From Paenibacillus terrigena DSM 21567 (GTDB lineage Bacteria > Bacillota > Bacilli > Paenibacillales > Paenibacillaceae), in the NCBI RefSeq assembly GCF_000374845.1, contig NZ_KB895417.1:249661-313660 (forward strand): 64,000 nt of DNA. The letters are read 5' to 3'. How positions within the stretch are numbered: the stretch's first letter is position 1; each line of letters begins with the position of its first letter. The notes under the pieces are model-generated. The model saw only the letters and a program-made list of their open reading frames with translations, was not told the DNA's origin and did not search any database. Both the position numbers and the translations under genes were made by a program. Shown here one piece after another: positions 20,901 to 55,917 of the stretch.

Positions 20901-22584
20901 AGGCGGTCAGCTGCCAGGACGTAAAGTTTACCCTTGGGTTGCTGAAGTTCGTGGTTCAACGCCAGGCGTAGGTCTGATCTCGCCGCCGCCACATCATGAT
21001 ATCTATTCGATTGAAGATTTGGCTGAATTGATCTATGACCTGAAGAACGCCAATCCACGTGCTCGCATCAATGTGAAGCTCGTCTCCGAAGTTGGAGTAG
21101 GTACAATTGCGGCAGGGGTTGCTAAAGGACGTGCAGATGTCATTCTCGTGAGTGGCTATGATGGCGGAACTGGAGCTTCGCCGCAGGGATCGATCCGCCA
21201 TGCGGGGATGCCTTGGGAGTTAGGACTTGCAGAGACGCACCAGACGCTCATGATTAATAACCTCCGGGATCGCGTCGTTGTCGAGACGGACGGGAAGATG
21301 ATGAACGGACGCGATGTGGCGATTGCCGCATTGCTAGGTGCTGAGGAATATGGCTTCTCGACATCTCCGTTAATCGTCCTTGGTTGTATCATGATGCGTG
21401 TCTGCCAGTTGGATACGTGCCCTGTAGGGGTAGCGACACAAAATCCAGAGCTGCGTAAGAACTTCACAGGGGACCCTGAACATGTGGCAAATTACATGCG
21501 GTTCATTGCTCAGGAATTCCGCGAGATTATGGCTGAACTCGGATTCCGTACCGTGAATGAAATGGTTGGACGTACGGAATATCTGGATTCGAAGCAAGCG
21601 GTTATGCATTGGAAATCCAAAGGCGTCGATCTCTCATCGATGTTATATCAACCGGAAATGGCTGAGGACAGCGAACGTTATTGCGTACAGTCGCAGAATC
21701 ATGGTCTAGAGCTGACGCTCGATATGAAGAAGCTGGTTCCGCTTGCGGAGCAGGCGCTTGTAACGGGTACGCCGGTTGAAGCGACGCTTCCGATCACGAA
21801 CGTGGATCGAGCAGCGGGTACGATTCTTGGCAGCGAAGTGACGCGCCGTTATGGTGCGGCAGGCTTGCCGGAAGATACGATCCGGTTCAACTTTGTAGGT
21901 ACGGCAGGCCAGAGTCTTGGCGCCTTCATTCCGAAGGGGATGACCTTAGCCGTGGAGGGTGACTCCAATGACTATGTTGGTAAAGGATTGTCCGGCGGTA
22001 AGTTGATCGTCAGACCGTCGACGAAGGCGACATTCAAGGCAGAAGAGAACGTCATTATCGGAAATACGGCTTTCTACGGCGCGACATCCGGTAAGGCCTA
22101 CATTAACGGGATTGCTGGGGAACGATTTGCTGTTCGGAATTCCGGTGCACATGTTGTCGTTGAAGGTGTTGGTGATCATGGATGCGAATATATGACGGGT
22201 GGTCGTGTTGTTGTTCTTGGTGCTACAGGACGTAACTTCGCAGCCGGGATGTCCGGCGGGGTTTCGTATGTACTCGATACGGATCAGTCTTTCGTGAACC
22301 GTGTGAACCTGGAGATGGTCTTGCTCGAACGTGTTGAAGATGCGGATGAAGTCAAGGAACTGCGCACGATGATCGAAGAGCACGTCCGTTACACGGGCAG
22401 TGAGCTTGGTCAACGGATCCTCTCCAATTGGGATGCAACACTTCCGAAATTCGTACGGATCATTCCGAAGGATTATAAGAAAATGCTTGAATACATCGCG
22501 AAGGCTGAAGCGAAGGGCCTTGAAGGCGAGAGCGCATTAATGTCGGCTTTCGAGACCAGTATGCGTGAAGTTCTGAAGGTGTAG
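17983..22584 (+). CDS. gltB: Glutamate synthase (NADPH/ferredoxin) large subunit
   Basis: This 1533-residue enzyme transfers the amide of glutamine to 2-oxoglutarate, yielding two glutamates. It has an N-terminal class II glutaminase domain whose nucleophile Cys follows a short propeptide (KDA-CGMGF), a central domain, an FMN/TIM-barrel domain ([33 protein letters not shown]), a 3Fe-4S Cys cluster (CQLDTCPVG) and a C-terminal GXGXG beta-helix. The ATG at 17983 gives a 23-residue propeptide before Cys. An in-frame TTG at 17941 would lie inside the inverted-repeat element and has no ribosome binding site. The only Shine-Dalgarno candidate for the ATG is a rather distant GAAAGG. No gltD small subunit follows; a terminator does. 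Confidence 0.95.
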
Positions 22585-22596
22585 TCGAGATAGAGA

Positions 22597-22632
22597 AACC
22601 TCAATCCGTTTTGAACGGGTTGAGGTTTTTTG
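22597..22632 (+). terminator. Terminator after gltB
   Basis: AACCTCAA(T)CCG/CGGGTTGAGGTT is followed by TTTTTTG, 13 nt after the stop. Confidence 0.88.
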
Positions 22633-22643
22633 TGTTGATTATA

Positions 22644-22753
22644 GTGTGGAGAAGCGAAGCGCTCACCTTAAAGTCGTGTCCAAAACCGCTATTACATCCA
22701 TTCAAGTAGACACGATTTTAACAGCGATTGGAACCCTATACCCATCCCTCCAA
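22644..22753. repeat. Structured hairpin repeat element, copy B
   Basis: This is a relative of copy A at 11.9-12.0 kb. On the minus strand it reads GGGTATA..TTCCAATCGCTGTT, then the arm AAAATCGTGTC, a loop containing CTTGAAT, then the arm GACACGACTTT, then AAGGTGAGCGCTTC. The arms (22670-22680 with 22709-22719) pair, but their sequence is unrelated to copy A's arms, while the flanking and loop motifs are kept. It lacks copy A's outermost 12-bp arm. Confidence 0.7.
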
Positions 22754-23009
22754 TTGAGCAAACGCAGGGGTTTATCTAATATTTTTTTGGTCGAAGCATC
22801 TCCTCTAACTGCACTTTAACACTTTAAACTAAACCTAAATGGATTCGACAAAAAAAGAATGAAAATCCTCTGCATCCCTTCCAGATAACGACAACATCCT
22901 GTGATCGCTTCCCTTATAATAAGGCTTGTGCTTCATTAGGAAGCCCAAAATGCTGCCAGATGATGATACGTGATACATAGAAATATATTAAAAAGCGAGG
23001 GTACATAAT
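22754..23009. other. Intergenic region before the 54-residue gene
   Basis: No gene is seen here. A 13-nt palindrome CCTTATAATAAGG (22912-22924) contains a perfect TATAAT and may be a -10 with an overlapping operator for the small gene downstream. No good -35 is present. Confidence 0.4.
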
Positions 23010-23174
23010 ATGAGCGAAGAGCAAGCTTTTGAAACCGTATCGGTTCACAAGGAAGCGAATGCACCGGCTAAGATTGAGATCGATGTCATTAAGATGCTAC
23101 ATCAGCTCGGAATTGAGGAAGAACGGTGGCCCTTGGAGATCATTCAGAAGCGTGTGCTGCCAGATCCTTCTTAA
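23010..23174 (+). CDS. 54-residue protein of unknown function
   Basis: The frame encodes MSEEQAFETVSVHKEANAPA followed by an amphipathic stretch with IEIDVIKMLHQLGIEEERWPL and the end QKRVLPDPS. A GCGAGGG ribosome binding site lies about 9 nt upstream, and the stop is followed within 6 nt by a strong terminator, so the transcription unit looks complete. The composition is acidic, with no signal peptide, membrane helix or Cys. I do not recognise the family. Confidence 0.6.
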   Translation: MSEEQAFETVSVHKEANAPAKIEIDVIKMLHQLGIEEERWPLEIIQKRVLPDPS

Positions 23175-23180
23175 CAAACG

Positions 23181-23240
23181 AACAATCCTCAGTCAAATGA
23201 ATGGCGAGAGATTATATTCACTTGATTGAGGATTGTTATG
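23181..23240. terminator. Bidirectional terminator between the 54-residue gene and the XRE gene
   Basis: AACAATCCTCAGTCAA pairs with TTGATTGAGGATTGTT (23222-23237), with a 25-nt loop. T-rich sequence follows on the plus strand (ATGTTTTCTTCTT), and TTCGTTTGTT follows on the minus strand, where the convergent XRE gene ends. Confidence 0.75.
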
Positions 23241-23248
23241 TTTTCTTC

Positions 23249-23620
23249 TTATGATTTCATCATACGTTCGGCGCGAACAAATGCGATGAAGCGACGGGCT
23301 TCATCATCCGTTAATTGTTGTCCATCGACGGTTAGATTAAATCGTTCTAAGAGTTCCGAATCGGCGAGCTCTAATTGCTCCGTAAAGTGTTCGATTTCAG
23401 GATCTAGAACATGCTGTGAGGTATTCGTTCTACCGATGAGGTAGTCGATGGATACCTGGAATAGATCGGCTAGCTGTGTCAACGTCTCAAAATCTGGCTT
23501 TCTGCGGTTCTTCTCATAGTGTGACAGTGCTGCTCGGCTGATGCCGATCATCGTTGCCAACTCCTCTTGCGTCCACCCTTTTTGCTCCCGCAGTTCTGAG
23601 ATTCGATTCCCGTTTTTCAT
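23249..23620 (-). CDS. XRE-family repressor, candidate regulator of the EPS locus
   Basis: This 123-residue protein has a typical HTH_3 domain (residues 5-60: ISELREQKGWTQEELATMIGISRAALSHYEKNRRKPDFETLTQLADLFQVSIDYLIG) and a ~60-residue acidic helical tail ending LTDDEARRFIAFVRAERMMKS, probably for oligomerisation. The gene begins with AGGAGG about 9 nt upstream. It is transcribed away from the PilZ gene and EPS operon, and the ~210-nt divergent region holds two 15-nt operator-like sites. The same paired sites occur before ugd inside the EPS locus. By analogy with SinR in B. subtilis, it probably represses EPS genes and itself; this is inferred from context, not shown. Confidence 0.9.
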   Translation of the reverse strand: MKNGNRISELREQKGWTQEELATMIGISRAALSHYEKNRRKPDFETLTQLADLFQVSIDYLIGRTNTSQHVLDPEIEHFTEQLELADSELLERFNLTVDGQQLTDDEARRFIAFVRAERMMKS

Positions 23621-23676
23621 ATGTTTTCCTCCCCAAGGATGCTATGCAATCTAAAATCGACAACGATAAAAAACGC

Positions 23677-23735
23677 TTGACATGTTACAAATTGTATCGT
23701 AAATTAATAGTGTCATCTATGATACAAAATGTATC
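23677..23735 (+). promoter_or_regulatory. Divergent promoter/operator: TTGACA-N17-TAAATT with two 15-nt operators
   Basis: The -35 TTGACA (23677-23682) and -10 TAAATT (23700-23705) are spaced by 17 nt and point to the PilZ/EPS genes. Operator 1, GTTACAAATTGTATC (23684-23698), fills the spacer. Operator 2, GATACAAAATGTATC (23721-23735), starts 37 nt later, downstream of the -10. Both are built on TACA-N3-TGTA dyads. Binding would occlude RNA polymerase; the sites also lie 64-115 nt upstream of the XRE gene. Confidence 0.75.
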
Positions 23736-23830
23736 GTAAAGCGATGTTTTGAAACAACAAGTAGCATTATTCCCTTTTTTAAGCTAGGTTAATCCTGCTC
23801 ATTCCCATGAATAAAAGAAGGAATCGGTGT

Positions 23831-24265
23831 ATGCAACATAAACAAAAACCTATTGGAAGAAAGAATATCAGACTTCGGCTCATCCCACCTCTGATCGGCC
23901 AATTGTGTATTGAAGCCGTAAATGGCGAGCCTGTGAAGAGCAATGCACATCCCGTGCTTATCGTCCACATGAGTCCTTCAGGATTGCGAATTTGCTCGCA
24001 CCTCAAGTTCCCTGTAGAGTCCCACTATGAATTACGAATTGAAATGCGAATACTTCAGGTTCATTTGGAACTGAGGGGCGCTGTTGAGTGGAGGACTGAA
24101 GAAGAGAACTTGTACGAATACGGCGTTACGCTGCTTCAGACTGAGGCTGAGAGGCTCCTCTTAAGTAAATTACTCCATGACTATCTAAGATCAATCATTC
24201 CTGAGCAAGAGCGAATTCATCAATTATATAGCACATTGTTACGAAGTGTGTCATCGGATCACTAG
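23831..24265 (+). CDS. PilZ-domain protein (probable c-di-GMP receptor)
   Basis: This 144-residue protein appears to be a stand-alone PilZ domain. The c-di-GMP-binding RxxxR element is seen near the N-terminus (GRKNIRLRL). The second motif, normally [DN]xSxxG, reads HMSPSG, with His in place of Asp/Asn. Beta strands follow (ELRIEMRILQVHLELRGAVEW) with a C-terminal helix. The ATG at 23831 follows AGAAGGA by 9 nt; the ATG at 23807 lacks a ribosome binding site. It is the first gene behind the operator-controlled promoter, and no terminator separates it from the CpsB gene 75 nt later. It may therefore couple c-di-GMP level to EPS production or export. Confidence 0.75.
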   Translation: MQHKQKPIGRKNIRLRLIPPLIGQLCIEAVNGEPVKSNAHPVLIVHMSPSGLRICSHLKFPVESHYELRIEMRILQVHLELRGAVEWRTEEENLYEYGVTLLQTEAERLLLSKLLHDYLRSIIPEQERIHQLYSTLLRSVSSDH

Positions 24266-24340
24266 AATATCATTTTACTATATTTCTGACAGCTGTGCAT
24301 TAGTGAAATAGTCGCAAAAATAGGGAATCAGGTGAGAGGT

Positions 24341-25048
24341 ATGATCGATACGCATTGTCACATTTTGCCGAATTGTGATGATGGGGCGCAGACGATTCAA
24401 GATTCTCTTCGGATGGCCGCAGTAGCCGTTACGCAAGGAATACATACAATTATTGCGACACCCCATCATGGAACGAAGCGATATAGTAATACTGCAATAA
24501 AAATACAAGAAGGTGTTATCAAGTTAAATGAAAGGCTAAAACTGAACGGGATTCAACTTACGGTTTTGCCTGGGCAAGAATTTCGATTAAATGAATTCTA
24601 CAAGGTGGATCATCAAACAGGTAGATTACAGACGATGGCTGGAACATCCTATTTGCTTGTCGAACTTCCCACTCGAATGATACCGTCATATTTTTTTGAA
24701 TTTATTAACTATATGTCCCATAACCATATAAAAGTTGTAATCGCACATCCCGAGCGGAATGTTGGCGTAATTCGAAATTCAAAACAGTTATACGAGTGGA
24801 TTGAGGCGGGAGTGATGTTGCAAGTTACATCGCAGTCATTAGTAGGTGTTTTTGGGAAAAAAGTCCAAAAAATTGCGGCTCTTATATGCAAACGTAAATG
24901 GGCGCACTTCCTTGCATCAGATGCTCATAATACGTTGAAGCGAAGTTTTTATCTACGCGAAGGTTACGCAGCAATTGAGCAGTTGTGTGGAAGGAAGTAT
25001 GTAAATTCAATATTACAAAATGCTGAGGGGCTTGTCATCAGGAAGTAA
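24341..25048 (+). CDS. Protein-tyrosine phosphatase of the CpsB/YwqE type (PHP fold)
   Basis: This 235-residue manganese-dependent phosphatase dephosphorylates the BY-kinase encoded two genes on. PHP-fold metal ligands are visible: DTHCHIL at the N-terminus, DDGAQT, ATPHH, a Glu in PGQEFRL, AHPER and SDAHN. The ATG at 24341 was chosen because it begins the conserved MIDTHCHILP, with AGGTGA 5 nt upstream; a GTG 9 nt earlier overlaps that site. The order phosphatase, Wzc-type membrane protein, kinase is the standard head of Gram-positive capsule/EPS operons. Confidence 0.92.
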   Translation: MIDTHCHILPNCDDGAQTIQDSLRMAAVAVTQGIHTIIATPHHGTKRYSNTAIKIQEGVIKLNERLKLNGIQLTVLPGQEFRLNEFYKVDHQTGRLQTMAGTSYLLVELPTRMIPSYFFEFINYMSHNHIKVVIAHPERNVGVIRNSKQLYEWIEAGVMLQVTSQSLVGVFGKKVQKIAALICKRKWAHFLASDAHNTLKRSFYLREGYAAIEQLCGRKYVNSILQNAEGLVIRK

Positions 25049-25093
25049 CTGTCGGAATGAATCCATTTAGCGGAAAATATTGGGGGTGGGACC

Positions 25094-25843
25094 GTGGAAC
25101 TGAGACAATTTTTACAATTACTAAGAAGAAAAATGTGGCTTATTTCCTTTATTGTCATACTTGTTACAGCATCGGCGGGTATTTATACAGTATTTTTTGT
25201 ATCTCCTACTTATGAGGCCACCAATAAACTCGTTGTGAATAAATCTGATGTAGATAGGTCCGGAAACTCATTATTGGATGTCAACTCTATCAATACGAAT
25301 ATTATGTTAATCAATACCTACAAAGAAATTATTAGTTCAGGAGCGATCTTAGACAAGGTTGTAGAACGATATCCTGACATGAATATCTCTGCAGAGGAAT
25401 TATTTTATCGAATAAAAGTATTAACGACACAAAACTCACAGATTATTACGCTGAAAGTGACGGATGGATCTTATCAAAAGGCTGCGACATTAGTAAATGC
25501 TATTTCAGAAGTGTTCAAAGAAGAAGTTCCTAAAATAATGATGGTTGATAATATTACAGTTCTAGACTCAGCGAAACTCAATGATCATGCGGTAAAGGTG
25601 GGTCCAGCGCTCAAATTAAATCTTGTGATGGCTTTTGTGCTCTCGTTCATGTTGTCAGCTGGAGGAGTTCTATTGTTAGATTTTTTGGATGACTCCGTGA
25701 AAACAGAAGTTGAAGTTAAGCAATTATTTGGATTAGAGACCATAGGGGTGATATCAAGAATCCGAAAGAAAGATTTAAAGAAAAAGTGTAACAAAACATC
25801 CAAAAAACAAGCGGGTGAAAATTATGTCACGATTAGCCAGTGA
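25094..25843 (+). CDS. Wzz/Wzc-type chain-length membrane protein (BY-kinase activator)
   Basis: This 249-residue polysaccharide co-polymerase has an N-terminal membrane helix (about 13-34), an extracytoplasmic domain (PTYEATNKLVVNK onward) and a second helix (about 172-195). A short cytoplasmic tail (from LDDSVKTEVEVKQLFGLETIGVI) would contact and activate the separate kinase. B. subtilis EpsA/YwqC and staphylococcal CapA share this layout. It controls polymer length and export. Its 3' end overlaps the kinase gene by 20 nt, so the two are translationally coupled. The start is GTG with a GGGGGTGGG purine stretch upstream. Confidence 0.9.
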   Translation: MELRQFLQLLRRKMWLISFIVILVTASAGIYTVFFVSPTYEATNKLVVNKSDVDRSGNSLLDVNSINTNIMLINTYKEIISSGAILDKVVERYPDMNISAEELFYRIKVLTTQNSQIITLKVTDGSYQKAATLVNAISEVFKEEVPKIMMVDNITVLDSAKLNDHAVKVGPALKLNLVMAFVLSFMLSAGGVLLLDFLDDSVKTEVEVKQLFGLETIGVISRIRKKDLKKKCNKTSKKQAGENYVTISQ

Positions 25844-26513
25844 AACAAAACTTATCATGGAGATTAACCCTAACTCACCTATTGCAGAAGCTTATCGTAC
25901 TTTGAAACTTAATATTCAATTTTCGGAATGGGATAGGAAGCTACAAGTTATTGCTGTGACATCAAGTATTCCTGGAGAAGGCAAAACGACAACAATTAGT
26001 AACCTTGCTGTTTGTTTCGCTAAAGAAGGCAAGAAGGTTCTGATAATGGATGCTGATTTACGAAAAGCCTCTTTGCACCGTATATTTTCAATGGCAAATA
26101 AGGTTGGTTTGTCTAATGTACTTGTCAATCAATATCATGCAAGTGATGTGATTCGAACCACAGGGGTAGATAACTTATCCATTCTAACATCGGGATCCAT
26201 ACCTCCAAACCCTGCAGAGCTATTAACCTCACCTAATTTCATGGAAATGATTGATGAGTTAAAGAACAGCTTTGATATCATCCTAATCGATACACCTCCC
26301 ATTCTAACGGTCTCAGACGGACTAATTGTTACAACTTTATGTGATGGTGTCGTTTTCGTTATTCAAGCGGGAAAGGCAAAGCGTCATTTGATAAAAAAAT
26401 CAAAAGAAAAATTAGATTATGCAAAAGCACCTCTCCTAGGTGTCGTGTTAAACAATAAAAAACTGAACAAATCTGAATCACAATATTACGATTACGAACT
26501 TAAAGAAGAGTAG
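25824..26513 (+). CDS. BY-type tyrosine kinase (CapB/EpsB/YwqD type)
   Basis: This 229-residue cytoplasmic autokinase has Walker A (SSIPGEGKTTT), Walker A' (VLIMDADLRK) and Walker B (IILIDTPP). It ends with the Tyr cluster QYYDYELKEE that is autophosphorylated in these enzymes. It works with the upstream membrane protein to regulate EPS chain length; the CpsB phosphatase reverses its phosphorylation. The ATG at 25824 follows GGGTGA by 6 nt. A structured RNA region follows, as in the eps operon of B. subtilis after epsB. Confidence 0.93.
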   Translation: MSRLASETKLIMEINPNSPIAEAYRTLKLNIQFSEWDRKLQVIAVTSSIPGEGKTTTISNLAVCFAKEGKKVLIMDADLRKASLHRIFSMANKVGLSNVLVNQYHASDVIRTTGVDNLSILTSGSIPPNPAELLTSPNFMEMIDELKNSFDIILIDTPPILTVSDGLIVTTLCDGVVFVIQAGKAKRHLIKKSKEKLDYAKAPLLGVVLNNKKLNKSESQYYDYELKEE

Positions 26514-26519
26514 TTGTTG

Positions 26520-26645
26520 AGTTCAGGTAATGTCTATTGAACCTTTATCACTGTAGGCACTCGGTCATGCTGTGGGTATGAGAATACCTTAGACGTTTAT
26601 CGTCAAGGGTGTGATGTGAGGACGGGTTTAATGCCCATTCTATTT
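26520..26645 (+). ncRNA. Probable EAR (eps-associated RNA) antitermination element
   Basis: The 244-nt gap between the kinase gene and the PglF/EpsC-like gene is where Bacillales eps operons carry the ~120-nt EAR element (Irnov and Winkler), which promotes readthrough of downstream terminators. The sequence has several short helices, for example GGGTAT-GAGA-ATACC and GACG-TTTAT-CGTC, and a plausible terminator sits just behind. The identification rests on position, size and hairpin content; I could not run a covariance search. Confidence 0.65.
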
Positions 26646-26665
26646 GATTTCTAAATAAAAGTATG

Positions 26666-26713
26666 AGCTATATAAACTCGGCATAACGAGTCGATATAGC
26701 TGTTATTTTTATT
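26666..26713 (+). terminator. Intrinsic terminator inside the EPS operon, after the EAR region
   Basis: AGCTATAT...ACTCG-GCATAA-CGAGT...ATATAGCT forms a long near-perfect stem followed by GTTATTTTTATT. A terminator in mid-operon makes sense if the preceding EAR element antiterminates. Confidence 0.75.
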
Positions 26714-26756
26714 ATTTAAGCAAATGATAGATTATTCCTACGAAAGGAAGTAGTCA

Positions 26757-28637
26757 ATGAATTATTACAGTAAAAAAATAATATTGATGACAACGGATAT
26801 CGCCATGGTTTGGGTGAGTATTTATTTTGCATATTTCTCCAGAATGAGCGGTCATGTCCCTCCAGAATTCACAGCGCAGCGTATATTTTTTTCCGTATCG
26901 ACGACATTGTTCTGCTTGGGGGTTATGTATTATTTCAAACTGTATAATCGAATTTGGCAATATGCTAGTGTGCCAGAAACCCTTGCTATTATGAAAGCTG
27001 TGATATTTTGCTGCGGTGCATCATATCTGATGACCTATTTTTTCCTGCATGAAGCAATCCCACTATCCATCATGATTCAATCGGTGGAGACCATGATGCT
27101 TCTAATTGGTGGCGTGAGGTTCATGTGGAAATACAAGCACTATTATGATTTTAAAAGGAAGACCAATGCGCAAAAGGTACTTATCATTGGAGCTGGAGAT
27201 TGCGGAAGTATTATCGCGAAAGAATTACAAGCGAATCGTATGTCTAATATGAATCCTGTAGGATTCATAGATGATGATACGACGAAGCATAAGTATCAAA
27301 TTCATGGGGTTCCGGTTCTTGGGGCGAGAGATAATATCATTCATACCGTATCTAAATTGAACGTGGAACATATTATTATTGCTATGCCATCTGCATCCTC
27401 AAATGCGATTTCAGAGATTATTGAGATCTGTAAAAAAACCAAGGCAAAGCTTAAAATAATTCCTATTTTGAGTGATGTGATTGAAGGTAAGGTAGCTATC
27501 CAACAAATACGTGATGTGGAAGTTGAGGATCTCTTGGGTAGAGAGTGCGTGAATGTTGATCTAGAGGGTATCGCCAATTATGTTGAGCGAAAAATAGTGC
27601 TTGTTACGGGAGCAGGAGGATCGATTGGTTCGGAACTCTGTCGTCAAATATCATCATTTCATCCAAGTACACTTCTATTACTAGGGCATGGTGAAAATAG
27701 TATTTATACCATCGAGATGGAATTACGTACAAAGTTTCCCCACATAAGATTGGAGAGTATTATCGCTGATGTGCAAGACCGAGATCGTATAGAGCAAATT
27801 TTTAAAGAATATCGGCCACAGGTCATCTTTCATGCTGCAGCTCACAAGCATGTCCCATTAATGGAACAAAACCCAGCAGAGGCTATTAAGAATAATGTGT
27901 TCGGGACGAGAAATGTAGCAGAATGCGCGGATCTATATGGTGCACAACGATTTGTTCTTATTTCAACGGATAAAGCTGTTAACCCAACGAGTGTTATGGG
28001 AACAACAAAACGGATCGCTGAGATGATTATTCAAAGCTTAAGTCGTAGCAGCAGTACGGTTTTTGCAGCTGTTCGATTTGGAAATGTTCTAGGGAGTAGA
28101 GGGAGTGTTATTCCACGATTTAAAGAACAAATAAAAAATGGTGGTCCTGTTACGGTTACGCATCCAGAAATGACACGTTATTTTATGACCATTCAAGAAG
28201 CTGTTCAATTGGTTATCCAAGCTGGAGCTTTCGCTGAAGGTGGAGAGGTGTTTGTCCTTGACATGGGCGCGCCTGTAAAAATTGTTGACTTGGCTAGTGA
28301 TTTAATACGATTGTCGGGATTCGAGCCCGAGGTTGATATCAAAATAGCTTATTCTGGTATTCGACCTGGAGAGAAATTATATGAGGAATTGTTGACGAAC
28401 GAAGAAGGCCTAAGCTCAACAATACATAATCGGATATTTATTGGAAAGGCTCAAGAAGTAGATTGGAGTCAATTACAGGTTGATATGAGTCGCCTAAGTT
28501 TGATATTAGATCAAGATAAATCAGATATACATCGTTATCTATCGTACATTGTACCAAGTTTTAATTCTCTTGTTATGGAGGAGCAATCTCAAGCAAGTAA
28601 GGAAATAAATCCAGAGTGGGTCTTTGCAGGTGTCTAA
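26757..28637 (+). CDS. PglF/EpsC-like UDP-GlcNAc 4,6-dehydratase
   Basis: This 626-residue membrane-anchored enzyme has four N-terminal helices (about 5-115), a first Rossmann domain (IGAGDCGSIIAKEL) and a C-terminal SDR catalytic domain. The latter carries GAGGSIGSEL and the altered catalytic segment STDKAVNPTSVMGTTKR, in which Met replaces Tyr as in PglF/FlaA1-type dehydratases. These convert UDP-GlcNAc to the 4-keto-6-deoxy sugar. With the PglE-like and PglD-like enzymes further down it would make a UDP-bacillosamine-type sugar. AAAGGAAG precedes the ATG. Base composition is clearly AT-richer than outside the locus. Confidence 0.92.
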   Translation: MNYYSKKIILMTTDIAMVWVSIYFAYFSRMSGHVPPEFTAQRIFFSVSTTLFCLGVMYYFKLYNRIWQYASVPETLAIMKAVIFCCGASYLMTYFFLHEAIPLSIMIQSVETMMLLIGGVRFMWKYKHYYDFKRKTNAQKVLIIGAGDCGSIIAKELQANRMSNMNPVGFIDDDTTKHKYQIHGVPVLGARDNIIHTVSKLNVEHIIIAMPSASSNAISEIIEICKKTKAKLKIIPILSDVIEGKVAIQQIRDVEVEDLLGRECVNVDLEGIANYVERKIVLVTGAGGSIGSELCRQISSFHPSTLLLLGHGENSIYTIEMELRTKFPHIRLESIIADVQDRDRIEQIFKEYRPQVIFHAAAHKHVPLMEQNPAEAIKNNVFGTRNVAECADLYGAQRFVLISTDKAVNPTSVMGTTKRIAEMIIQSLSRSSSTVFAAVRFGNVLGSRGSVIPRFKEQIKNGGPVTVTHPEMTRYFMTIQEAVQLVIQAGAFAEGGEVFVLDMGAPVKIVDLASDLIRLSGFEPEVDIKIAYSGIRPGEKLYEELLTNEEGLSSTIHNRIFIGKAQEVDWSQLQVDMSRLSLILDQDKSDIHRYLSYIVPSFNSLVMEEQSQASKEINPEWVFAGV

Positions 28638-42205: not shown

Positions 42206-43138
42206 ATGCAAGCATTGAAAGAAACCATTCGACGTCAAGAGTCATTAATGAACATGTACAAATTTTTGAACCAGAGAATCAACAATGCCATATATCAAAT
42301 CTCTCCCGTACTATTAACAAAGAAATTATATAAAGAAACGATGGGGACGAGACTGGATTTAGTGAATCCAAAAGATTTCAATGAAAAACTGCAATGGCTC
42401 AAGTTGTATTGGCAACATCCGCTTGTTGCAAAATGTGCGGATAAATATACCGTTCGGGAATATATTGAAGAGTGCGGTTATTCAGAGATTTTGAATGAAT
42501 TATATGGTGTGTATGATCAAAGTCAAGACGTTGATTTTGGGGCATTGCCGAATCAATTTGCTATAAAGTGTACCCATGGCTGTGGGTTTAACATTATTTG
42601 TAGTGATCTGAGTGCGGTGAATACGGAAGAGATGAGAGAGAAATTAGATGGATGGATGAAAACGAGATATAGTCTAGTCGCAGCAGAAGTTCAATACGAT
42701 AAGATGAAACCAAGAATTATATGCGAGAAATACCTCGGAGATGCTGCTGGTAATACGCCGGCTGATTTCAAGGTCTACTGTTTTCACGGAAAAGCGGTAT
42801 TCATATTGGCTTGTACAGATCGGAATACAGGTGTTAAATTCAGTCTGTATGACAAAAATTGGGAATTATTCCCCTATCGAAAGTGGAATAGCTCGAAAAA
42901 CATTGATAAACCAATAACATTAGACCAAATGCTTCGTGTATCAGAAGCGCTATCACAGCCATTTCCCTTTGTACGGATTGATTATTATGAATACGAAGGT
43001 CAACTAATATTAGGAGAGATGTCCTTCACGCCAACAGGTTGTTTGGATAGTCAATTAGAAGAGGAAACAAGTCTCTATATGGGAAATCTCATTACACTAC
43101 CGGGAAAGTATAAACCAAATAGCGTGAAAAATAATTGA
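42206..43138 (+). CDS. TupA-like ATP-grasp protein
   Basis: This 310-residue protein resembles TupA-type ATP-grasp proteins named after a gene for teichuronopeptide synthesis in alkaliphilic Bacillus. Visible features are NPKDFNEKLQWLKLYW, KCADKYTVREYI, FAIKCTHGCGFNIIC, the ATP-grasp-like EKYL, ADFKVYCFHGKAVF and VRIDYYEYEGQLILGEMSFTPTG. In TupA the family is thought to link amino acids to uronic acid residues; here the next gene is ugd, which makes UDP-glucuronate, a fitting substrate supply. The ATG at 42206 with GAGGAG ~8-10 nt upstream was chosen over a TTG at 42197. Its stop overlaps the -35 of the ugd promoter. Confidence 0.78.
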   Translation: MQALKETIRRQESLMNMYKFLNQRINNAIYQISPVLLTKKLYKETMGTRLDLVNPKDFNEKLQWLKLYWQHPLVAKCADKYTVREYIEECGYSEILNELYGVYDQSQDVDFGALPNQFAIKCTHGCGFNIICSDLSAVNTEEMREKLDGWMKTRYSLVAAEVQYDKMKPRIICEKYLGDAAGNTPADFKVYCFHGKAVFILACTDRNTGVKFSLYDKNWELFPYRKWNSSKNIDKPITLDQMLRVSEALSQPFPFVRIDYYEYEGQLILGEMSFTPTGCLDSQLEEETSLYMGNLITLPGKYKPNSVKNN

Positions 43139-43193
43139 CATGTTACATTTTGTATCGTAAATTGAATATGTGCCCAACGATACAAAATGTATC
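43135..43193 (+). promoter_or_regulatory. Second copy of the XRE-type promoter/operator, before ugd
   Basis: The -35 TTGACA (43135-43140), 17-nt spacer and -10 TAAATT (43158-43163) reproduce the promoter at 23.7 kb. Operator 1, GTTACATTTTGTATC (43142-43156), lies in the spacer. Operator 2, GATACAAAATGTATC (43179-43193), is identical to operator 2 at 23.7 kb and again starts 37 nt after operator 1. The surrounding sequences differ, so the pattern is conserved by function rather than by recent duplication. Confidence 0.78.
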
Positions 43194-43233: not shown

Positions 43234-44613
43234 TTGGTAATGGAGAAAATCGCTGTAATTGGAACGGGATATGTGGGACTAGTGTCAGGGACTTGTTTTG
43301 CGCATGTTGGAAACCATGTTGTTTGCTGCGATATTGATCGCTTCAAGATAGAACGATTGAATCAAGTTGATCTCCCGATCTATGAGCCAGGGTTAGAAGA
43401 GATGGTAAGGGAGAATATGGATCAGGGAAGGCTTGTTTTCACTGCCGATATCCCCACAGCGATACGAGAAGCAGATATTATCATGATTGCTGTGGGCACA
43501 CCAATGTCTTCTTCAGGTGAAGCGGATCTGCGTTATGTAAAGGAAGTTGCAAAGACGATCGGAGCGAATCTGATATCCAATAAAATTATCGTTACGAAGA
43601 GTACGGTCCCCCTCGGGACAGGGAAACTTATTGAAGCGATCATTCGCGAGAATTTAGAGAATCATAATCTGTCATTTGATGTGGTCTCGAATCCAGAATT
43701 TCTAAGAGAAGGATCAGCGTTATTTGATTGCTTTAATATGGAACGCGTTGTCATTGGGGCAACAAATGATCAAGCCGCCGATAGAATTGCACAATTGTAT
43801 AAACCTTTTCAAGCACCAATAATTAGGACGAATTTGGAAAGTTCAGAAATGATTAAGTACGCTTCAAATGCTTTTTTAGCGACAAAAATTTCATTTATTA
43901 ATTCGATTGCGAATATATGCGAACGGCTTGGAGCAGATATTACGGATGTCGTTGCCGGGATGGGTCTTGACAGTCGAATCGGCCGTAAGTTTCTACAGGC
44001 GGGAATTGGATATGGAGGATCATGCTTTCCTAAAGATACACAGGCACTCAAACATATAGCTCAGCAGTCGGGATATGAATTTAAAATTTTAGATGCAGTG
44101 ATACATACGAATGAGATGCAAAGGGTATTGGTTCTTGAGAAGCTGGAAGATGCGTTAAGTGAAATGAAAGGGAAAGAGATTGCGATTCTGGGCGTTTCAT
44201 TCAAACCGAATACGAATGATGTGAGAGAAGCGCCATCTGTAACTTTAATTCCAGCTTTGTTAGCAAAAGGTGCACGAATTCGGGTTTATGATCCCGTAGC
44301 AATAGAAGAAATTAAGAAAATATTTGATGATCGAATCACGTATCATGAAGATCTCTATGAGACACTTCAGCATTGTGAAGCATGTGTAATCCTGACGGAA
44401 TGGGAAAGTATCGTAGGCATGGATCTTGCCAAAGTACGACAAGCGCTTAAATATCCTAATATTATCGATGGACGGAACTGTTTTGAGACGAATGAAATGA
44501 AAGCATTGAAATTTAACTATTATTCGATCGGTAGAGCAGCAATTCTGGCGAATGAAGAGGAGAGTCCAACTTCACGGATGAACAAATGGTCTATTGAACC
44601 AGTTGCTAACTAA
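43234..44613 (+). CDS. ugd: UDP-glucose 6-dehydrogenase
   Basis: This 459-residue NAD-dependent enzyme oxidises UDP-glucose to UDP-glucuronate. It has GTGYVGLVSGTCFAHVGN, the catalytic Cys in GIGYGGSCFPKDT, EFLREGSA and the C-terminal GVSFKPNTNDVREAPS. The TTG at 43234 has GGAAGGTG 5 nt upstream; the ATG two codons on is the alternative. It has its own promoter with the paired operators, making it a separately controlled branch of the EPS locus. It converges on the beta-helix gene. Confidence 0.95.
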   Translation: MVMEKIAVIGTGYVGLVSGTCFAHVGNHVVCCDIDRFKIERLNQVDLPIYEPGLEEMVRENMDQGRLVFTADIPTAIREADIIMIAVGTPMSSSGEADLRYVKEVAKTIGANLISNKIIVTKSTVPLGTGKLIEAIIRENLENHNLSFDVVSNPEFLREGSALFDCFNMERVVIGATNDQAADRIAQLYKPFQAPIIRTNLESSEMIKYASNAFLATKISFINSIANICERLGADITDVVAGMGLDSRIGRKFLQAGIGYGGSCFPKDTQALKHIAQQSGYEFKILDAVIHTNEMQRVLVLEKLEDALSEMKGKEIAILGVSFKPNTNDVREAPSVTLIPALLAKGARIRVYDPVAIEEIKKIFDDRITYHEDLYETLQHCEACVILTEWESIVGMDLAKVRQALKYPNIIDGRNCFETNEMKALKFNYYSIGRAAILANEEESPTSRMNKWSIEPVAN

Positions 44614-44682: not shown

Positions 44683-45957
44683 TTACCCACTGATAGGGGT
44701 GAGACGAAGTTTTGTCATTTTTAAAGTTGCTATAGTAACAGCAGATGACTCTTCATTTTTTATGGTGGCGATGACGTTCTTTTTATTCGTATTATCTCGG
44801 TAATAGCTACATATCGTTACATTCTTATTATTGGTGACAAAAGTTTGAATCGAAATGACGTCGTCGATTGAAACATCATGCTGAAATGAGAAAGTTACTT
44901 TTTTTATTTGATTGGCGTTAAGGCTAATATTCGTTAATGTATCAGTGGATTTCCGTAACGGCCCAAAATCAACTTCCAAATCGTTGATCGGTGTTGTTTT
45001 TGAAATAATGGGAGATAAGCGATAGATCGGAATATTTCCAGCTATGATTGTTGGATCATACGTTGCTGTTTGCCCATATTGCGTAAAATCATTGACGGAT
45101 GTAATCTCGCTGCCAGCGATAAGTCCGGTTGTGTTATGAATGGCAATGTTCTGAGCTGTATTGTTATATGAGAAGCCCTTAATATATCCGTTCCATACGA
45201 TAAATGCAGGTACATCGACACCACCATGTCTACAATTCGATATGGTAATGCTTTTTGTCGATTCGGAGTTAATAATAATGTGACCGCCGGTATTTGCTTC
45301 AAAGTAACAACCATCGATGACAAGGTTGGTGGAATTCTTAATTTGTATGGCTGTACCCGAAAGTCCTTCCAAAACAGAGTCTCTTATTCTGCAATTATAT
45401 ATATCTGGATCCGTCCCTGACTCTCGATGAATAAATCCGTGTTCTCGTTGTTCAATGACAACATTATTCCAACTGCAATCATATGCTCCGCCGAAATCAA
45501 ATGCGTAACCTTTACCACCCGTGATGCTCTCGTTGGAAAATCTCATCGATTGCATATATCCACGATCTTCGGTTTTTACGATTGTATCCATATTGTTGTA
45601 TGAACATAAATTGGAGTGAATTCGAATAATACTTGGAGCTTTATACACGATCGTACCCGCACCTGGAACACTCTCGAACGTCATTCCATCTACGAAAATA
45701 TCACCCGTATTCATATTGCTTGCGATAAAGATATAACCTGAATCCGTTTTTCGAATTCCCCCGTTAGAGTTACTGTAAAATCGTAACGGAATTCGATTCC
45801 CAAGCGTTTTGTTAATCGTCACGGTACTTCCTGTAATATCATACAATCTATCAAACTCAACACCTCGTCTTTGTGTTACGGCATCATTTATTGCAGATTG
45901 TACTTTTTGATAATCCGATCCGTTATAGCTGTCCGGTATTATTGCGTTCATTGGCAT
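44683..45957 (-). CDS. Right-handed beta-helix protein (pectate-lyase-like), no signal peptide
   Basis: This 424-residue protein begins with the element common in Pectate_lyase_3/tailspike proteins (YNGSDYQKVQSAINDAVTQRRGVEF) and continues with Asn/Ser-rich parallel beta-helix rungs (NCRIRDSVLEGLSGTAIQIKN, NLVIDGCYFEANTGGHIIIN). The C-terminal ~120 residues form a beta-rich domain. It may cleave or bind the EPS made by the surrounding genes. The ATG at 45957 follows AGAGGTG by 6 nt. There is no signal peptide or membrane helix, so its site of action is puzzling. It is the only gene on the minus strand within the EPS locus and has its own terminator. Confidence 0.8.
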   Translation of the reverse strand: MPMNAIIPDSYNGSDYQKVQSAINDAVTQRRGVEFDRLYDITGSTVTINKTLGNRIPLRFYSNSNGGIRKTDSGYIFIASNMNTGDIFVDGMTFESVPGAGTIVYKAPSIIRIHSNLCSYNNMDTIVKTEDRGYMQSMRFSNESITGGKGYAFDFGGAYDCSWNNVVIEQREHGFIHRESGTDPDIYNCRIRDSVLEGLSGTAIQIKNSTNLVIDGCYFEANTGGHIIINSESTKSITISNCRHGGVDVPAFIVWNGYIKGFSYNNTAQNIAIHNTTGLIAGSEITSVNDFTQYGQTATYDPTIIAGNIPIYRLSPIISKTTPINDLEVDFGPLRKSTDTLTNISLNANQIKKVTFSFQHDVSIDDVISIQTFVTNNKNVTICSYYRDNTNKKNVIATIKNEESSAVTIATLKMTKLRLTPISG

Positions 45958-46077
45958 CGTTTTCACCTCTCAAGCTAAATTTTCTATTCATTATATGCAA
46001 GACTTTATAGGTTGGATTGAACGAACTTTCTGGTGAAAAAGTGGAATATACTAAAACCTTAAATAAGGAGACTTACA

Positions 46078-55867: not shown

Positions 55868-55917
55868 TTGACAATTTGAGAGAAATGGTGTAACGTTGAT
55901 ACGATACATATTGTAAC
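55868..55917 (+). promoter_or_regulatory. Third XRE-type operator, with promoter, before the CxxC gene
   Basis: TTGACA (55868-55873), a 17-nt spacer and TAACGT (55891-55896) form a candidate promoter. GATACATATTGTAAC (55903-55917) directly follows; its reverse complement GTTACAATATGTATC has the same form as operator 1 of the two other sites. Only one operator is seen here. Confidence 0.55.

Follow-up and report, generated by a model that had tools for sequence, protein, structure and literature searches.

Which protein controls an exopolysaccharide (EPS) operon that resembles the eps operon of Bacillus subtilis when the regulatory gene beside it is not sinR? The question is raised by a 64,000-nt stretch of DNA from Paenibacillus terrigena DSM 21567 (contig NZ_KB895417.1), called the window below, in which a small gene for an XRE-class protein, xre (xre1), lies back to back with the first gene of such an operon. 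In B. subtilis, SinR, with SinI and slrR, is the repressor of the eps operon. According to the original prediction, the XRE protein plays the part of SinR, repressing a PilZ gene, the EPS genes that follow it and its own gene. Among Paenibacillus, Cohnella and their relatives are EPS producers of soil, of plant roots and of industry, and the open-access literature searched yielded no paper on a repressor of EPS operons in these bacteria.

From comparisons of sequences across relatives, we conclude that XRE1 probably recognizes a pair of dyads in this control region and represses near-consensus EPS promoters; we put the probability of this reading at about 0.85.

Promoter and putative operators

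The features of the locus, and of related sites elsewhere in the genome, are collected in Table 1.

Table 1. Features of the xre/EPS locus and related sites (window coordinates unless a locus or contig is named)
Feature	Position	Strand	Evidence or remark
s54, conserved 54-aa protein, convergent with xre	23010-23174	+	Profile search of relatives
xre (xre1), 123-aa HTH_3/XRE putative repressor	23249-23620	-	Pfam HTH_3
-35 box TTGACA of pilZ-EPS promoter	23677-23682	+	Hexamer scan
Operator O1 (putative), GTTACAAATTGTATC	23684-23698	+	Fills promoter spacer
-10 box TAAATT of pilZ-EPS promoter	23700-23705	+	N17 spacer from TTGACA
Operator O2 (putative), GATACAAAATGTATC	23721-23735	+	Reverse complement is GATACATTTTGTATC
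pilZ-like gene, first of EPS operon	23807-24265	+	Pfam PilZ E 3.7e-4, below cut-off
cpsB/capC-like gene	24341-25048	+	Pfam CpsB_CapC 1.5e-49
wzz/EpsA-like chain-length protein	25094-25843	+	Pfam Wzz 4.7e-16
Probable tyrosine kinase, EpsB-like (position and P-loop domain)	25815-26513	+	Pfam AAA_31 6.5e-19
epsC RNA (EAR, eps-associated antitermination RNA)	26525-26637	+	Rfam RF01735, 100.3 bits, cut-off 42
EpsC/CapD-like nucleotide-sugar dehydratase	26757-28637	+	Pfam Polysacc_synt_2 1.6e-125
O1 of second pair	43142-43156	+	-35 TTGACA 43135-43140, -10 TAAATT 43158-43163
O2 of second pair	43179-43193	+	37 nt from O1, upstream of ugd
ugd, UDP-glucose/GDP-mannose dehydrogenase	43234-44613	+	Pfam UDPG_MGDP_dh_N 5.8e-68
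xre2, second xre gene, 110 aa	L021:4567-4899; C2:484740	-	Operator site L021:4944

The divergent xre and pilZ-like genes are separated by 186 nt (23621-23806). The predicted arrangement, a promoter with one dyad in its spacer and another further on, proved exact in coordinates and sequence, with O1 and O2 lying 37 nt apart from start to start. On their own the hexamers mean little, because shuffled versions of the region 22500-28500 give a mean of 18.1 promoter-like matches; the region itself has 19, among which TTGACA-N17-TAAATT is the joint best (10 of 12 bases). The dyads clearly exceed shuffles: at one mismatch or fewer the window holds 10 strand-matches to GWTACANNNTGTATC, while 100 shuffles average 0.55 and never exceed 4. 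Four of these ten form a second pair, at ugd, and two are one weaker site at 55903. In the 6.36-Mb genome, the exact pattern GATACANNNTGTATC is found at 8 places and its reversed form at none; two exact dyad sites fall within genes (C1:9216 and C17:17176). When one mismatch is allowed, the excess is smaller (31 forward and 35 reverse matches against 9 and 11 for the control), and since the reversed control matches too, lone weak dyads elsewhere are not trustworthy. Single weak genomic dyads were excluded from the regulon count.

The sites had been predicted to represent a regulator-operator pair different from SinR, and this was half right. SinR-type GTTCTYT sites have no match in 23621-23806, as stated in that prediction. 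The operator, however, is not new: the DBTBS consensus for the operator of Xre from the B. subtilis prophage PBSX is given in an excerpt of PMC4243335 as GATACATTTTGTATC, the reverse complement of O2. Judged by sequence and as far as that excerpt goes, the operator class is already known and is of the PBSX-Xre type.

The EPS operon and its first gene

Nothing terminator-like was found on the + strand in the gap between the pilZ-like and cpsB-like genes (24266-24340), again as predicted. Further downstream, to ~55.9 kb, reading the sequences suggests epimerases, glycosyltransferases, a flippase-like protein and sugar transferases; one reading frame, after ugd (44683-45966), is on the opposite strand. 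The EAR RNA lies between the kinase gene and the EpsC-like gene, and is also present in 13 of the 14 related loci chosen for Rfam search. In an excerpt of PMC10653937, the B. subtilis EAR RNA is placed between epsB and epsC.

The claim that a c-di-GMP receptor heads the operon was not supported as worded. PilZ proteins bind c-di-GMP through two motifs, RxxxR and [DN]xSxxG. The window protein, which probably starts at ATG 23831 behind AGAAGGA, scores 21.2 bits against a Pfam PilZ cut-off of 22.5; it keeps RxxxR and has HxSxxG, without D or N, in place of the second motif. Of 34 homologues that were aligned, 22 give a match to PF07238 at E<=0.01, the best at 4e-13. Among 97 distinct homologues (fragments L065 and L217 were left out of the motif count), 21 have both motifs, 12, including that of the window, have RxxxR only and 64 have neither. 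The copy from P. selenitireducens is one in which the motifs are intact. Reception of c-di-GMP is thus possible in some species and doubtful in the window copy, which is not among the 21 with the motifs intact. The gene evolves fast: outside the genus, identity is 21-38% for the PilZ-like protein and 55-75% for XRE. Control of the operon by a c-di-GMP riboswitch was also considered and rejected, there being no such riboswitch in the window at Rfam gathering scores. Separately, P. ottowii has a c-di-GMP-I riboswitch ~4.5 kb from xre (L234:9871-9952, - strand); it heads a gene on the side of xre away from the EPS operon.

Conservation of the control region

Homologues of pilZ are present in 68 of 117 genomes, the window's own included, and the loci were fetched from 60 of the other 67. 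After 32 of the 60 had been dropped (one gene without a match or, in 4, genes not adjacent), 28 remained, giving 29 divergent, adjacent xre-pilZ intergenic regions with that of the window. A dyad with at most one mismatch is found in 28 of the 29, and a pair spaced 33-39 nt (at most two mismatches each) in 24; 50 shuffles gave no pairs. We also scanned named genomes and kept, of 277 loci, the 80 best, which belong to Paenibacillus, Cohnella, Thermobacillus and unclassified relatives. In the 500 nt upstream of xre, 77 of these 80 have a dyad with at most one mismatch and 67 have a pair spaced 33-39 nt; L229, recorded as P. polymyxa ISL-58, is one locus with the pair.

Joining the two sets gives 109 regions, with some species in both; 96 have a pair spaced 30-39 nt and 13 do not. 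Removal of 20 duplicates from the 96 leaves 76 distinct promoters, which were chosen by dyad pair, the promoter boxes being no criterion for selection. All 76 have TTGAC 1-2 nt before O1 (hexamer TTGACN) and a TA...T -10 box at 16-18 nt, and in 75 the start of O1 is ~50-270 nt from that of xre. The layout in relatives is thus near-invariant: -35 box, O1 filling the spacer, -10 box, and O2 30-39 nt on. In P. ottowii and P. farraposensis this arrangement precedes wzz-kinase genes. A spacing that varies from 30 to 39 nt does not keep the two dyads in fixed helical phase and so gives no sign of cooperative binding.

Of 30 pair loci that were fetched, 27 were judged, by reading, to lie before xre and/or EPS genes; L127, L128 and L134 could not be placed. 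Targets in the 27 are xre/pilZ or, in other families, genes for wzz-kinase, cpsB, galU or a glycosyltransferase. The pilZ-like gene is not in the regulon everywhere, since no dyad precedes four closer homologues (L067, L069, L083, L096) that are not beside xre. Where xre is not next to pilZ (26 loci), a dyad with at most two mismatches lies within 360 nt upstream in 9 cases and is missing in 17; at the same settings, distant homologues with no EPS head genes near them (L101-L119) have it in 0 of 13. Fragments or short genes that match only the HTH of xre (~62 aa matched; G101:C23:466432-466617 and G111:C1:7520689-7520874) were seen within 300 nt of an operator pair in a further family, in two of its genomes.

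XRE1 and its association with the dyads

XRE1 matches PF01381 (HTH_3) with an E-value of 9.9e-21 and 74 bits, against a cut-off of 23. Its AlphaFold model (mean pLDDT 88.6) has an HTH followed by a C-terminal helix-helix-hairpin-helix domain. Among the fold matches listed for this model, at least a fifth cover residues 1-70 alone, and because these stop there, the C-terminal domain is not placed by fold; one structure, 9sf2, aligns with XRE1 by sequence through the C terminus. The recognition helix, SRAALSHYEKNRR, is nearly invariant (XRE of L065, whose start looks frame-shifted, was left out of alignment A1).

At E<=1e-30, an xre1 orthologue is present in 87 of 117 relatives and in 8 of 11 families; five genomes in this search were identified by subtraction. 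In a draw of 250 genomes from the class, 14 have it at the same threshold, all from the window's own family and the window genome among them. Looking for dyad pairs near XRE orthologues in related genomes had been suggested as a check. Of 117 genomes, 57 have the tandem pair pattern and none has the reversed control pattern; all 57 are among the 87 with xre1, against 0 of the 30 without (Fisher 1.9e-11, kinship ignored). By the pattern used, the other 30 of the 87 have no exact pair. O1-type promoters, searched for in 68 genomes, occur in 45 of 50 with xre1 and in 0 of 18 without. Some of the genomes lacking xre1 (G018 and G031 in g17, G045 in g4, G058 in g6) belong to genera in which it is otherwise present. 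Because the genomes share ancestry, none of these tallies consists of independent cases.

The best-surviving alternative is that the dyads belong to another XRE protein with the same class of operator, be it that of xre2 or the repressor of a resident prophage, and that xre1 is an incidental neighbour. Going by the excerpt on PBSX Xre, its operator type is presumably common to other repressors. The second gene, xre2, encodes a recognition helix similar to that of xre1, and in 24 of the 25 genomes that have it (of 68, at E<=1e-22; each of the 25 also has xre1) its own promoter shows the identical promoter-operator layout. Moreover, G011 and G045, both drafts with xre1 undetected, keep single dyads near EPS-type pilZ genes, which speaks against strict coupling of xre1 and dyads. 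Against this alternative, pairs are present in 10 of the 43 genomes without xre2 at that threshold, so that xre2 is not needed to explain them; they are absent from all 30 genomes without xre1. Even in two genomes where xre lies apart, ~18 kb from the pilZ-cpsB promoter (G004 and G022), dyads stand upstream of xre1: loci L212 and L224, from P. sambharensis and P. tarimensis, which we take to be the species of G004 and G022, have one dyad there. We therefore regard a different owner of the dyads as improbable and XRE1 as their likely ligand. With its similar recognition helix, the xre2 protein could conceivably share the sites of XRE1.

Candidate regulon

The full promoter-operator layout occurs four times in the window's genome: between xre and pilZ, before ugd, before an operon at C6:327069 and before xre2. 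The second pair of the window, at ugd, is 19 kb from the first and has the same layout and 37-nt spacing, which makes ugd a likely second regulon member in the EPS locus. The C6:327069 operon (O1-type promoter L022:14070-14095) encodes a small membrane-like protein, a cupin protein and a LytR-CpsA-Psr protein.

These sites bear on a second, still less probable alternative, in which XRE regulates only its own gene, pilZ and the EPS genes share the dyads through back-to-back promoters and EPS control lies elsewhere (EAR, kinase or c-di-GMP). Most dyad occurrences are indeed at divergent xre/EPS promoters. Yet the layout recurs at ugd and at wzz-kinase operons of other families, the pair is kept at the pilZ-cpsB promoter in both genomes where xre is distant, and the -35 and -10 boxes in register with O1 point toward EPS and not toward xre. 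Autoregulation is nevertheless likely alongside repression of EPS by XRE1, because the dyads are also upstream of the divergent xre gene. The original proposal that XRE represses pilZ, the EPS genes and itself thus has comparative support as regards dyad recognition, promoter occlusion, EPS targets and, probably, its own gene.

Several other dyads were noted in passing. The space between the genes for a multicopper oxidase and a very large, secreted, glycosidase-like protein holds exact dyads at C7:275807 and 275912 (L024:5008 and 5113), 105 nt apart. The single weaker dyad at window positions 55903-55917, GATACATATTGTAAC, is upstream of a small Cys-rich reading frame (from ~55965 on, by eye), and in L043, L045 and L054 dyads lie just before similar small Cys-rich genes.

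A linked 54-residue protein

Convergent with xre is s54, whose profile (E<=0.01) matches in 73 of the 87 genomes with xre1 and in 1 of the 30 without (Fisher 8e-16, kinship ignored); some of the matches are weak, with E up to 0.01. It lies less than 1 kb from xre1 in 56 of the 73 and less than 50 kb in 70. The gene adjoins xre where gltB is not found nearby (L063 and L078, for example), and in G004 and G022, with xre apart, it adjoins the EPS promoter. Substitutions relative to the nearest homologue number 5, 4 and 15 by codon position, and a motif filter was passed by 66 of 70 candidates, the window's included. Searches gave no match in Pfam (E<=1) or NCBIfam (E<=0.01) and none credible in the PDB (best E 0.35). 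As a candidate role we would guess at a small anti-repressor or cofactor.

The idea that s54 mimics the XRE C terminus was tried and rejected. By eye, its core (DIxKIL-QLGI) resembles XRE residues 72-91 (DPxVRxFxDQLELSD), and hhalign picks the same stretch. The hhalign probability is 0.2-0.5% (E 0.28 and 0.12), 15 of 150 column shuffles score as high, and the controls against s54 give E 0.25 over one column (PilZ) and E 0.13 (the HTH part of XRE).

Comparison with known systems

The locus shares with SinR of B. subtilis a small XRE repressor at an EPS operon, a wzz-kinase head and an EAR RNA before an EpsC-like gene; another xre gene behind the same operators is also reminiscent of slrR, and by this analogy xre2 is possibly an SlrR-like partner. 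The differences lie in the parts. Besides having another operator, XRE1 lacks a SinI-type domain (PF08671 is absent among the 23 Pfam families listed for it at E<=1), and its C-terminal domain is modelled as the helix-helix-hairpin-helix described above. The window genome has no SinI family match: at E<=0.001, no PF08671 genes were found in the three genomes of the genus that were searched (G000-G002). In 16 of 68 relatives PF08671 exceeds the cut-off, and among 14 control genomes it does so in B. subtilis only.

PBSX Xre is likewise an XRE-class repressor, and its operator, in the excerpt cited, is the reverse complement of O2; upstream of xre in the best 80 of 277 loci, the 77 matches with at most one mismatch are of this 15-nt GATAC-N5-GTATC type. 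The present gene differs from PBSX Xre in being chromosomal, at one locus across many genomes, with EPS genes rather than a prophage as its probable targets. In phage records, 490 of 50,697 hold XRE1 homologues, all less than 60% identical. PBSX itself has several 15-nt operators per control region, as here. Another mobile-element repressor, ImmR of ICEBs1, has operators that differ from these dyads.

Proposed mechanism and significance

We propose that XRE1 is a dedicated repressor of EPS genes in Paenibacillus and relatives. One XRE dimer would sit on O1, over the spacer of a strong sigma-A promoter, and another on O2, over the region of the transcription start (~+16, estimated), as an extra block. 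RNA polymerase would thereby be kept off pilZ, cpsB, wzz, the kinase gene and the genes beyond, with the EAR RNA presumably antiterminating further along the operon; ugd and other EPS-related promoters would also be repressed. That XRE instead activates the EPS promoter is scarcely credible: some HTH_3 regulators do act as both activator and repressor, but O1 lies between a near-consensus -35 box and a -10 box at ~17 nt, a position from which a bound dimer would be expected to obstruct polymerase, and occlusion fits better than activation because hexamers and spacer are already near-optimal in all 76 distinct promoters. Binding, repression and autoregulation, like the signal and the roles of s54 and xre2, are what we infer from these comparisons.

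By analogy, XRE1 most likely does for EPS in Paenibacillus what SinR does in B. subtilis, and a B. subtilis-like eps operon seems to be run here by a repressor other than SinR. We offer a wider version only tentatively, at well below even odds: a SinR-free matrix switch in which XRE1 would repress both EPS genes and the SlrR-like xre2 through PBSX-type operators, with s54, a neighbour of xre1 that is inherited together with it, as the anti-repressor that lifts the block.

The analysis puts names to an EPS regulator, its putative operators, a small regulon and a small linked protein. It suggests that a repressor other than SinR, with an operator of prophage type, can govern an eps operon that has the B. 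subtilis layout and an EAR RNA. If the wider version is true, the circuit logic of SinR, SlrR and SinI would have two origins, with non-orthologous parts put to use on similar eps operons.
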